Positions 1,814 to 12,544 of a stretch of DNA of 32,343 nt are shown one piece after another. Each line of letters opens with the position of its first letter. The stretch's first letter is position 1. Both the position numbers and the translations under genes were made by a program. This DNA is from Methanobacteriota archaeon (GTDB taxonomy: Archaea > Thermoplasmatota > Poseidoniia > Poseidoniales > Poseidoniaceae), in the NCBI GenBank assembly GCA_002699515.1, contig PAAW01000064.1, positions 1 to 32,343 on the forward strand. The letters are read 5' to 3'. The notes under the pieces are model-generated. The model was not told where the DNA came from, searched no databases, and worked only from the letters and a program-made list of their open reading frames with translations.

Positions 1814-3988
1814 TCAAGAGGAGACTATATCAAACTTAGTTTCAAAATATGTTGAGATTCCAGGTATATTTGAAATTAAATCTGAGTAGCTTCCAAGGTG
1901 TTGTTGAGATGTCACCGTAACTAATCCTGGAGTATTCAAAATATTGTTTAAAATTTGATCTCCGCATGTGTTTTTTGGTGAATCTGAATCAACTTGGTGT
2001 GTTGTGATGTCATAACAACCAGTATATGTGTTGCCCATTACTGTCATATTTTCTACATATTGTTCATTATTTAATGAAAGAAGGGCATTAAGTATAGCTG
2101 TCCTTGTTTGGATATCTATTCTATCTGGGTTATACATTACTGGGTGACTTGGTGCTTTACCAAACATAGGTAATGCAACATATTGATCCATTGCTAAACA
2201 CCAATCTTCGTTTTCTACTGGGTCCTCATTATCACAATATGAAGCTACTGTACTATCTTTTGCAAATGCAACATCACCTGTTCCATCAGATAAGCATTTT
2301 ACTGCTCCACTATATCCATAGTATGGTGTCCCAGAATCTGGAATAGAAGCATCATCACTAAAGAAATTAAATATTGTATTTCTTAATGACTCAATGTCTG
2401 TTGGATCTCCTATAACCTCAGCATATCCATTACCAATTAAGTATCCCATTGGTAATAACATACCTGCTGATTTTAACCATCCTGTATGACATGATGTTTT
2501 ACCTTCTAATAATGCAAATGGATCAGTTGTTGGGTCATCATCTAAATGAGCTGCTGCCATTTCACTATCTGCTTTTACCCACGCATGTGCATTGTAATGT
2601 GTTCTTCCGTCAGACTTTTGGTCTGCAGCCATAGCTGCCAATCCATATTCTTTCCAACCAACCCATGACGCTCCTCCATCCATAAATGCAATGTCTGCAT
2701 TTCCAAATCTTAAAGCCTCAATAATTGCACCTTCAGAACTTACTGGGTAAAGTTCAACAGTTACTCCTAATTTATCTGCTAAATAATCAGCTAAAATTTG
2801 GGGGTTTTCATCAGGATTATCATAATCATCTTTAACTTCATATGCTATTACAACATTGTCAATTGTTGGCGTCATTAAATCATTAATTGTGTATTTATCA
2901 TTATAATATGCTGAAATTCCTGGAATTGCTGACAATACTGCAGAATAACTCCCTAAATGTGTTTCTGTGTCTGTTTCAACGATTCCTGGTGTACTTAATA
3001 CATCAGATAATATTGCTGCTCCATCTACCTCGTCCTTCATTTCAACTAATGCAGTGGTTACTTTATTTACTAATTCTTCATCCATATATTGAGGATTATA
3101 CATTACTGGGTGACTTGGAGACTGCCCAAATTCTGGTAATGCAACATATTGATCCATTGCTAAACACCAATCTTCATTTTCTGTTGGGTCCTCATTATCA
3201 CAATAAGATGGGACTGTGCTATCTTTTGCAAATGCAACATCACCTGTTCCATCAGATAAGCATTTTACTGCCCCTCCATATCCATAATATGGTGTTCCAG
3301 AATCTGGAATTGAAGCATCATCACTAAAGAAATTGAATATTGTATTTCTTAGTGTTTCTACATCATTTGCATCACCAACAACATTTGCATATCCATGTCC
3401 AATTAAATATCCCATTGGCATTAACATACCTGCTGATTTTAACCATCCTGTATGGCATGATGTTTTACCTTCTAATAATGCAAAAGGATCTGTTATTGGG
3501 TCATCATCTAAATGTGCTGCTGCCATTTCACTATCTGCCTTTACCCATGCATGTGCATTGTAATAAGTTCGGCCATCTGACTTTTGATCTGCTGCCATAA
3601 CTTCAAGATCGTATTGTTGCCAACCAACCCATGCACTTCCCCCATCCATAAATGCTAAATGTGCATTTCCGAATCTTAATGCTTCTAATGCTGCACCTTC
3701 TGAATCTATAGGGTATAATGAAACGTCCATAGTTAATTTAGCACTAAGATAATCTGCTAAACGTTGTGGGTTTTCATCAATATTTTCATAATCATCTTGA
3801 ACTGAATATGCGATGTTTAATTTTGGTAATTCAACTGTATCTGTAGTTGTATTATCAGAAGTTGTGTTGTTTGTTGTGTCGTCAACAACTGTATCATCTT
3901 TAATCAAAGGTTCGTCCGTTCCTGTGCATCCAGCAAATACTGAACAAATAATCAATATTGCCATCAATAATTCTTTTCCAATTTTCAT
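1814..3988 (-). CDS. phnD: Lipoprotein with two tandem PhnD-like periplasmic substrate-binding domains
   Basis: Lipobox-like 'CSVFAGCTG'; two near-identical copies of 'FGNA.IAFMDGG..WVGW...AADQKSDGRT.YNAHAWVKADSEMAAAHLDDDP.TDPFALLEGKTSCHTGWLKSAGML'; SD GGAGAG 6 nt before ATG. Confidence 0.88.
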   Translation of the reverse strand: MKIGKELLMAILIICSVFAGCTGTDEPLIKDDTVVDDTTNNTTSDNTTTDTVELPKLNIAYSVQDDYENIDENPQRLADYLSAKLTMDVSLYPIDSEGAALEALRFGNAHLAFMDGGSAWVGWQQYDLEVMAADQKSDGRTYYNAHAWVKADSEMAAAHLDDDPITDPFALLEGKTSCHTGWLKSAGMLMPMGYLIGHGYANVVGDANDVETLRNTIFNFFSDDASIPDSGTPYYGYGGAVKCLSDGTGDVAFAKDSTVPSYCDNEDPTENEDWCLAMDQYVALPEFGQSPSHPVMYNPQYMDEELVNKVTTALVEMKDEVDGAAILSDVLSTPGIVETDTETHLGSYSAVLSAIPGISAYYNDKYTINDLMTPTIDNVVIAYEVKDDYDNPDENPQILADYLADKLGVTVELYPVSSEGAIIEALRFGNADIAFMDGGASWVGWKEYGLAAMAADQKSDGRTHYNAHAWVKADSEMAAAHLDDDPTTDPFALLEGKTSCHTGWLKSAGMLLPMGYLIGNGYAEVIGDPTDIESLRNTIFNFFSDDASIPDSGTPYYGYSGAVKCLSDGTGDVAFAKDSTVASYCDNEDPVENEDWCLAMDQYVALPMFGKAPSHPVMYNPDRIDIQTRTAILNALLSLNNEQYVENMTVMGNTYTGCYDITTHQVDSDSPKNTCGDQILNNILNTPGLVTVTSQQHLGSYSDLISNIPGISTYFETKFDIVSS

Positions 3989-8003: not shown

Positions 8004-8810
8004 TTAATTTTCAACTTTTTGCAACTTGGTATCCATTGTTGCAGCATACCAAACCATTAAACCAAATGCTGTTTTATTAATTGCATCTGCTAAATTGTAT
8101 AGTATATTCAATCCGTCTGCACCACCAAAGTCATTATTCTGTCCTAAGAAATACCCTATAGGGTAGATCGCCCAACCAACAGTTAAAATAAACGCCATTG
8201 CTTTAAAGGCAAATTGTGTTCCCTCGCTCGTTTCCGAAACCTTGTTTTTAGCATCTCCAGCCCATATTTCATAAATTATGTAAAACCAAGCTGCCATTCC
8301 AATTGTGAACCACATCCACGGACTTCCTCCAATAATTTCTGATTCTCCGATAAATCCTGATATCAACATAATCATTGATGCTCCAAATAATCTGAAGAAT
8401 AATGCTGCAGATGCAACACCAACCGCTGCCAATATCAAATAAAATTCAGAAACTTGAAGGGGGACTGTAATCAACCAATCAATATATCTCAATACAAGAG
8501 GGCTCTCTCCTGTAGATACCCAATGATCTCTCATGTATGTATAGTGATACCAAGCAACACCCGTTACAAGAGCTGCAACTGTCATTGATGTTTTCCATTT
8601 ATCAGATACATTTTGTCTTTCTAATACAAAGAACACTGTTGATGCAAGCATCAACGCTGTTGCAATCCAAAAAGTAATTGCAACATTATCTGATGTGTCA
8701 ATTGTCATTCCACCTTCGGCACTTACAATACTTAAAGTTACTAAATATAGTAAACTAACTAAGGTTAGTGTTTTAATTTTATTTCTTCCAATTTTAATCA
8801 TTTTAATCAA
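8004..8810 (-). CDS. Proteorhodopsin (light-driven proton pump), blue-tuned type
   Basis: 268 aa, 7-TM; 'RYIDWLITVPLQVSEFYLIL' gives D97/T101/Q105/E108 equivalents; retinal Lys in 'NLADAINKTAFGLMVW'. Confidence 0.97.
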   Translation of the reverse strand: MIKMIKIGRNKIKTLTLVSLLYLVTLSIVSAEGGMTIDTSDNVAITFWIATALMLASTVFFVLERQNVSDKWKTSMTVAALVTGVAWYHYTYMRDHWVSTGESPLVLRYIDWLITVPLQVSEFYLILAAVGVASAALFFRLFGASMIMLISGFIGESEIIGGSPWMWFTIGMAAWFYIIYEIWAGDAKNKVSETSEGTQFAFKAMAFILTVGWAIYPIGYFLGQNNDFGGADGLNILYNLADAINKTAFGLMVWYAATMDTKLQKVEN

Positions 8811-10774: not shown

Positions 10775-12088
10775 TTATTCAATTACATATGTTTCCCTAT
10801 TCATTGGATTATGTACATTTATTCCAAGTTCTAATAATGATTTGGTTAATGGTGGTCTTGATGTTTTGTGGTCTGTATGATAAAGTATAACATCTTCTGC
10901 TTTACATTCTTTAGCAAAATTTACTAATTCATCATGGCCTGCATGAGTTGAAAAATCAAATCTTTTAACTTCTAGATCTATTGGAGTGATATTTCCAAAA
11001 ATTGGTAATCTTCCTTTTTCTAATAACATCCTTCCTCCGGTTCCTTCTGCTTGATAACCTGTTAAAAATACTGAATTTCTCTTGTCCATTCTTAATCTAT
11101 TAAGATACCAGACCGCAGGTCCACCTTCCAACATCCCACTAGTACTTACAATAACGTCAGCTTCCAAAGCTTTTTTCCGATCCGACTTACTAGATACTTT
11201 TCTTGATCTTCCAAAAGCAAATTCTAATGCTGAAGGATTTAATAATTCATTTTTATGATTAAGCATTGTTTTTGTAATTGTTTTTCCCATACCATCATAA
11301 TGTATTTCTAAATCTAAATCAGAATCTTGTAAAATCATCAAAATATCTTGGCTTCTACCCATTGCAAATGAGGGTATTAATGCGGTACCCCCCCTTTCAA
11401 CTACTCTTTCAACTTCTCTCAAAAATCTGTTTTCTTCATCTTTACGATTTGGATGATTTTTTCCTCCATAGGTTCCTTCCATAAATAAAATATCGGCTTT
11501 TTGGGGTTTTGCTCCTTCAACTAATCTTGAATTTCTAGTATCAAAATCACCAGAAATTAATATTTTCTTTTCTGGTGTTTGAATATCTATCATAGCAGCA
11601 CCTGGAATATGTCCTGCTTTTCTTAAACACCAAGTCCAATCATCTAACTCATTTATTTTATTATATTCATGAATATTCCAAGCTGATTCTGATTCTGCTG
11701 CATCTCTTTTATCCCATGCTAATGGATACCCTTCTATTTTACTTACTTTATAACAATCATTCCACATTAATTTAGATATAGATGAAGTAAAAGCTGTAGC
11801 ATGTAATTTTGTATAATGAGATGAATTTAACCAGGGCACCATTCCTAAATGATCAATATGTGCATGGGTTATGATAGAATCAGATATTTTAGGTGCTGCT
11901 GCAGGATATTTAGGGGGTTTTGTAGGAGCTAAACCATAATCAAATAATAATTTTGATTTTGTATAATCTTCTATTATACAACCTACATTTCCTACTTCTT
12001 CTCCCCCGCCTAAAAAATGGTATCTAAATCCTTTATCAATTGGATCTGATGGATAAGATGTGATTCGTGTTGGATTATACATTACCAT
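10775..12088 (-). CDS. MBL-fold/beta-CASP ribonuclease (CPSF-like)
   Basis: 'HAHIDHLGMVPWL', 'ISGDFDTRNSRLV', 'MEGTYGGKNH', 'VSTSGMLEGGPAVWYL', 'VKRFDFSTHAGHDEL', 'YHTDHKTSRP'. Confidence 0.9.
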   Translation of the reverse strand: MVMYNPTRITSYPSDPIDKGFRYHFLGGGEEVGNVGCIIEDYTKSKLLFDYGLAPTKPPKYPAAAPKISDSIITHAHIDHLGMVPWLNSSHYTKLHATAFTSSISKLMWNDCYKVSKIEGYPLAWDKRDAAESESAWNIHEYNKINELDDWTWCLRKAGHIPGAAMIDIQTPEKKILISGDFDTRNSRLVEGAKPQKADILFMEGTYGGKNHPNRKDEENRFLREVERVVERGGTALIPSFAMGRSQDILMILQDSDLDLEIHYDGMGKTITKTMLNHKNELLNPSALEFAFGRSRKVSSKSDRKKALEADVIVSTSGMLEGGPAVWYLNRLRMDKRNSVFLTGYQAEGTGGRMLLEKGRLPIFGNITPIDLEVKRFDFSTHAGHDELVNFAKECKAEDVILYHTDHKTSRPPLTKSLLELGINVHNPMNRETYVIE

Positions 12089-12130: not shown

Positions 12131-12154
12131 ACCCCCTTATTTCCTGTGGAAAAT
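12131..12154 (-). promoter_or_regulatory. ORB-like dyad + G-string element, left copy
   Basis: Minus strand reads TTTTCCACAGGAAATAAGGGGGT; inverted with respect to the right copy. Confidence 0.6.
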
Positions 12155-12272
12155 AATTGATTGATAAAACATTGAATATCTAAGAAATGTTTAATTGATT
12201 GTCGCGAAATCGATAATTGAGGTAATTTGCATTGGAAATGAATTGATGATTTGCATTGATATTTCAAATTAA

Positions 12273-12301
12273 TATTTCCACAGGAAATAAAGGGGTTAGG
12301 G
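12273..12301 (+). promoter_or_regulatory. ORB-like dyad + G-string element, right copy
   Basis: TATTTCCACAGGAAATAAAGGGGTTAGGG; shares TTTCCACAGGAAATAA(A/G)GGGG with the left copy. Confidence 0.6.
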
Positions 12302-12337
12302 TATAAATTTCTAAAGTAAAAACTTCTGGGTAGTAAT

Positions 12338-12544
12338 ATGGCAAGATTAAAGGGTCACAAATTTAACGTAATTGATGATCTTTGTTATGGATGTGGTGCA
12401 TGTATTGGACTTTGCCCCCTTTCTGTTTTAGAATTAGTAGATCAAATAGCAGTTGTTGATGAGAAAAATTGTTCACATTGTGAATTATGTATTCCTTCTT
12501 GTCCAGTGTTTGCATTGGAATTAAAGGTAGATAATAATGAATAA
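12338..12544 (+). CDS. 2[4Fe-4S] ferredoxin
   Basis: 68 aa; 'CYGCGACIGLCP' and 'CSHCELCIPSCP'. Confidence 0.92.
   Translation: MARLKGHKFNVIDDLCYGCGACIGLCPLSVLELVDQIAVVDEKNCSHCELCIPSCPVFALELKVDNNE

Follow-up and report, generated by a model that had tools for sequence, protein, structure and literature searches.

An inverted pair of origin recognition boxes as the likely chromosomal replication origin of Poseidoniales, located away from the initiator genes

Introduction

In oriC1 of Sulfolobus, an AT-rich region separates two origin recognition boxes (ORBs), ORB2 and ORB3, of inverted orientation, and each box is needed for origin activity, as is a motif (ucm) midway between them (PMC12141716). 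The locus described here resembles that arrangement (ORB3-DUE-ORB2) in having two inverted ORBs, an AT-rich region, and a short conserved motif midway. Unlike this locus, Sulfolobus oriC1 has a third ORB and an adjacent orc1-1 gene. Methanomassiliicoccales, a related lineage, share near-identical ORBs, which are mostly paired, and have two orc1/cdc6 genes per genome (PMC4153887). However, their pairs adjoin orc1/cdc6.1, whereas the Poseidoniales pair sits between a beta-CASP gene and a ferredoxin gene. Reviews describe the adjacency of orc1/cdc6 to archaeal origins as typical rather than universal (PMC4010727; PMC4164010), and we therefore did not treat adjacency as defining. Binding of Cdc6 to regions besides oriC has also been cited for Pyrococcus abyssi, although a role in gene regulation has only been suggested (review, PMC5333045).

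Poseidoniales are abundant uncultured archaea of the ocean, and no paper describing a Poseidoniales origin was found in the open-access literature that we searched. A located origin would provide a fixed reference point for growth rates based on metagenome coverage and for the orientation of assemblies.

Results

The window, meaning the whole stretch of 32,343 nucleotides that was analysed, belongs to a 72%-complete MAG of 1,590,281 bases. Its host was placed in Poseidoniales (marine group II) on the basis of the named relatives found in a beta-CASP protein search, which were nearly all Candidatus Poseidoniales or Euryarchaeota assemblies and included the chromosome CM001443.1. A Bacteriorhodopsin-family gene at 8004-8810 on the minus strand (PF01036, E = 1.8e-46) is consistent with this host. 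Also encoded in the window, at 1814-3988 on the minus strand, is a 724-aa protein with matches to a phosphonate-binding-type periplasmic domain and to the transferrin family. Two assemblies titled Deltaproteobacteria and Rhodobiaceae (L283 and L350) contained Poseidoniales-like beta-CASP loci and are probably mislabelled or contaminated.

The ORB pair is flanked on the left by a gene for a 437-aa beta-CASP metallo-beta-lactamase (10775-12088, minus strand) and on the right by a gene for a small 4Fe-4S ferredoxin-like protein of 68 aa (12338-12544, plus strand). Both boxes share TTTCCACAGGAAATAA(A/G)GGGG and are inverted around an AT-rich spacer. The left box, TTTCCACAGGAAATAAGGGGG, occupies 12132-12152 on the minus strand, and the right box, TTTCCACAGGAAATAAAGGGG, occupies 12275-12295 on the plus strand; each has 0 mismatches to TTTCCACAGGAAATAANGGGG, and each G-string points outward, towards the beta-CASP gene and the ferredoxin gene, respectively. 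With up to 3 mismatches allowed, TTTCCACAGGAAATAANGGGG had only these 2 matches in the window, where 0.01 would be expected by chance, and the same 2 matches only in the whole MAG. When up to 2 mismatches were allowed, a looser pattern, TTCCANNGGAAAYNANGGGG, matched at 4 additional scattered sites of the MAG, all with 2 mismatches, compared to 1 for the backward control. Both boxes match the published archaeal consensus, CTTCCAGTGGAAACGAAAGGGGT (PMC4153887). They also match the common motif of Ori-Finder, TCCA[CG]T[TG]GAAA[TC][GA]AAGGGGT (PMC4164010), from which the right box differs at one position by hand count.

Between the boxes lies a spacer of 122 bp (12153-12274), a candidate unwinding element, with an AT content of 76.2% compared to 67.6% for the window. 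The spacer is not extreme, as 7.5% of 122-bp windows are equally or more AT-rich, and its AT excess is modest for an AT-rich MAG. In an order-wide alignment of spacers, CGCGA at 12203-12207 falls within a conserved mid-spacer element with a consensus of about TTATgtACTTctCGCGAc. In position, this element is analogous to the ucm of Sulfolobus oriC1. A TATA-like sequence, TATAAATT, is present at 12302-12309 on the plus strand between the right box and the ferredoxin start, and its reading as a promoter is an inference.

Most of what a preliminary description had claimed for this locus held. The inverted pair of ORB-like elements between divergent genes was confirmed with exact matches, and the AT-rich spacer was confirmed although not as an extreme one. 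The dyad centres, described as about 134 bp apart, were 135 bp apart when recounted by hand (12146 and 12281). The direct repeat ATTTGCATTG (12225-12258, copies at 12225 and 12249) is also present as described; however, we rejected it as a core origin element because it is not visible in the order-wide spacer consensus.

To define conservation, 90 distinct beta-CASP/ferredoxin gaps of relatives were assembled from the beta-CASP protein search, named loci, and 33 earlier loci. Both boxes were present with up to 3 mismatches, inverted and with G-strings outward, in 85 of the 90, with both families represented. Some of the 33 earlier loci had been fetched by the ORB pattern, so this proportion is slightly favourable; 80 loci were fetched by protein alone. 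The box-to-box spacing ranged from 143 to 174 bp with a coefficient of variation (CV) of 0.04. In contrast, the distances from the boxes to the beta-CASP and ferredoxin starts had CVs of 0.38 and 0.43, making them about 10 times more variable. The spacer was more AT-rich than its own locus in 85/85 relatives, and the alignment of the relatives' spacers had the conserved central element around CGCGA. Taken together, the tight spacing against loose gene distances, the AT-rich spacer, and the central element indicate that the conserved unit is box-spacer-box, which fits an origin better than it fits two independent operators. Helical phasing of the box spacing was considered and set aside, as there was only a broad periodicity of approximately 9.5-10 bp that could not be separated from shared ancestry.

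ORB-like sites beside glyS and a topoisomerase VI A gene were present in three genomes (L361, L362, and L363) of the class's other family, which is probably marine group III. In two of these genomes (G075 and G082) these sites form a pair that is inverted with G-strings outward, as in the window, and approximately 90 bp apart; no orc1/cdc6 was recognised in the neighbouring open reading frames that were read. At the beta-CASP and mcm loci of this family that we examined, there was no ORB with up to 3 mismatches. As far as was tested, the window's arrangement is thus specific to Poseidoniales.

No orc1/cdc6 gene is present in the window, as the preliminary description had noted; the two of the MAG are on other contigs, C27 and C34. 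Among 48 genomes searched, all had orc1/cdc6, and 47 had two copies. In CM001443.1, a marine group II chromosome of 2,064,136 bases, these genes are at approximately 1,830 and 701 kb, and neither is near the pair, from which orc1/cdc6-1 is about 439 kb away. Because the pair of the relatives likewise lacks an orc1/cdc6 neighbor, absence of the gene from the window is no argument against the locus, and an initiator gene located away from the pair appears to be normal for Poseidoniales. The protein encoded on C27 is of the Orc1-1 type; its best PDB match was Sulfolobus Cdc6-1 (E = 1.4e-100), with the C-terminal winged-helix stretch aligned.

CM001443.1 is the single complete genome behind all of the skew and orientation results. 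A weight matrix for the ORB, built from the conserved pairs and scored over the whole chromosome, identified exactly four ORBs, at 26-33 bits, with the next best site at 14 bits. Two of these are the pair in the beta-CASP/ferredoxin gap (203,746 and 203,910), one is upstream of mcm (305,933), and one (1,824,164; L131) falls within the gene for a winged-helix-like protein of 843 residues, approximately 5.3 kb from orc1/cdc6-1.

Gene-orientation divergence in 100-kb windows had its genome-wide maximum at 204 kb, the position of the pair, a value reached by 0.05% of positions. In 60-kb windows the pair was not extreme, and the maximum was at 1,237 kb. Raw GC skew was rejected as an origin locator within the 32,343-nucleotide window since it tracks gene orientation, and raw whole-genome GC skew is weak in CM001443.1, which led us to use third and fourfold sites with strand correction. 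After this correction, the cumulative curve of GC3 peaked at 206.0 kb, near the pair. The plateau of the global AT maximum was also centred on the pair, yet the local skew sign was reversed. Third-position AT asymmetry was strong after strand correction, with a sharp switch at approximately 1,219 kb, the antipode of which is at approximately 187 kb. The opposite AT switch was not at the pair; equally good fits at fourfold sites were obtained at approximately 100-120, 310-330, and 50-60 kb, and the best-fitting switch was 84-126 kb away. The two best-fit counter-switches, at approximately 100-120 and 310-330 kb, lie symmetrically around the pair. They flank it because AT and GC skew within approximately 110 kb of the pair (about 98-330 kb) have a sign opposite to that of the AT skew of the chromosome arms. 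Correction for codon bias did not remove this zone. The skew evidence is therefore mixed, and we take the composition landmarks as support for chromosomal symmetry around the pair, short of the clean signal expected of a textbook origin.

The sharpest AT-skew switch of CM001443.1, at 1,216.6-1,219 kb (L100), falls at two divergent genes, ferredoxin and glyS; its sign (at approximately 1,218 kb) matches that of the local switch at the ORB pair (approximately 209 kb). No ORB was found within 1,210-1,225 kb, where the best site scored 4.7 bits compared to 26-33 bits for real sites, and within 12 kb of the switch there were no repeats and no intergenic region longer than 250 bp. On these grounds we rejected glyS as the site of a second origin in marine group II. 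A terminus would be the simplest reading of the switch and a second or former origin a more unusual one; both are tentative, and the switch is still unexplained. Oddly, glyS is also the gene that the ORB-like pair of the other family adjoins.

Upstream regions of mcm were collected partly through the ORB pattern and partly through a search for the MCM family. Of 51 distinct regions, 47 had an ORB with up to 3 mismatches on the strand of the gene (44 with up to 2), for example at L006:1502, L008:1520, and L033:1502. Each of these regions had a single box, 75-107 bp upstream of the estimated start, whose G-string faced the gene. Degenerate copies with 4-5 mismatches occupied the same place in three further regions. 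Only one region, from G011, was a clear exception; because a second mcm match exists in that genome, the gene is possibly a paralogue. As a control, the best site on the opposite strand had 4-7 mismatches in 50 of the 51 regions. The mcm-promoter box was not seen in the host MAG because that MAG, at its 72% completeness, is without mcm (best MCM match, 1.1e-8).

The ORB inside the coding sequence of the winged-helix-like protein was also present in seven further loci (L010, L014, L021, L024, L249, L266, and L270). Coordinates compared by hand placed such a box 4-6 kb from orc1/cdc6-1 in about 18 of 26 genomes with a contig long enough to extend to it. The codons TCC, GGA, and GGG are fixed in the box, whereas the residues encoded between these codons are variable, a pattern that could reflect selection on the DNA; the loci were chosen by pattern, and the observation is only suggestive.

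Discussion

The sequence and uniqueness of the boxes, the order-wide conservation of their orientation and spacing and of the AT-rich spacer, and the landmarks in one complete relative are shown here. On this basis, the element at 12132-12295 is likely the chromosomal oriC of its Poseidoniales host, as the preliminary description had proposed; its function as an origin is inferred, with no replication or binding data. The window pair satisfies the oriC criteria of at least two consensus-matching ORBs with a G-string and of ORBs inverted around an AT-rich unwinding region. The criterion of a genome-encoded Orc1-1-type initiator is met on homology only, and that of a neighbouring orc1/cdc6 or other replication gene is not met. 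By analogy with Sulfolobus oriC1, Orc1/Cdc6, most likely the Orc1-1-type paralogue on contig C27, would bind both inverted ORBs and open or remodel the 122-bp spacer, and two MCM hexamers would then be loaded face to face in the spacer, leading to bidirectional replication. The component parts are already known; what is new is the location of the origin and its separation from the initiator gene.

The points against this reading are the lack of orc1/cdc6 beside the pair, the reversed local skew, the glyS switch, the reliance on one complete genome, and the nearness of the boxes to gene starts. The last of these raises the possibility that the boxes are operators of the divergent beta-CASP and ferredoxin promoters, under regulation by bound Orc1, as may occur at mcm, or by a different winged-helix protein, with the origin elsewhere. 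In favour of operators, the boxes lie 62-63 bp before the starts of the two genes, each with its G-string facing the adjacent gene, the TATA-like sequence follows the right box, and mcm has a single ORB in a similar geometry. However, the spacing between the boxes is far more constant than their distances to the genes, the AT-rich stretch that separates them includes a conserved central element, and the site of the pair is a chromosome-scale symmetry point. We consider the operator reading unlikely.

Less likely still is that the pair is a secondary or late origin and that the main origin is at the opposite glyS locus. The skew switches of the same sign at the two loci of CM001443.1 and the inverted ORB-like pair beside glyS in marine group III-like genomes would be compatible with this, but the glyS switch of CM001443.1 lacks an ORB, a long intergenic gap, and repeats, and a terminus explains an antipodal switch more simply. 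That the pair is a chance occurrence or a repeat unrelated to Orc1 is all but excluded; no evidence in its support was found, and it is opposed by the small number of matches expected in the window, the four sites in the complete genome with their gap from 26 to 14 bits, and the order-wide conservation of position.

An oriC at the pair also withstood, to differing degrees, the observations that the preliminary description had said would refute it. Many copies at ordinary promoters were not found, as there were two copies in the MAG and four in CM001443.1. The absence of a skew extremum does not clearly apply, since compositional landmarks do centre on the vicinity of the pair, albeit with an unusual local sign. 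Neither does a clear origin elsewhere, as no better candidate was found, with the glyS switch remaining unexplained.

The box upstream of mcm is a more surprising result than the location of oriC. Its fixed place suggests that the initiator might also control mcm, an inference from sequence alone, and its order-wide occurrence makes initiator control of helicase transcription directly testable. A bolder reading, which could as easily prove wrong as right, is that each Poseidoniales chromosome retains a constant set of four Orc1 boxes, namely the origin pair split from the initiator gene, the mcm-promoter box, and the coding-sequence box near orc1/cdc6-1. The initiator would then have two roles, firing the origin and, as a transcription factor, controlling the gene of the helicase that it loads, and the coding box would be a titration or regulatory site. 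If true, this would be the archaeal parallel to gene sets under initiator control, of which the DnaA regulons of bacteria are an example. In a single genus, two genomes (L017:1502 and L018:1502) had an ORB near genes for a ribonucleotide reductase small subunit and a dUTPase-like protein; none was seen at the nrdB of CM001443.1.
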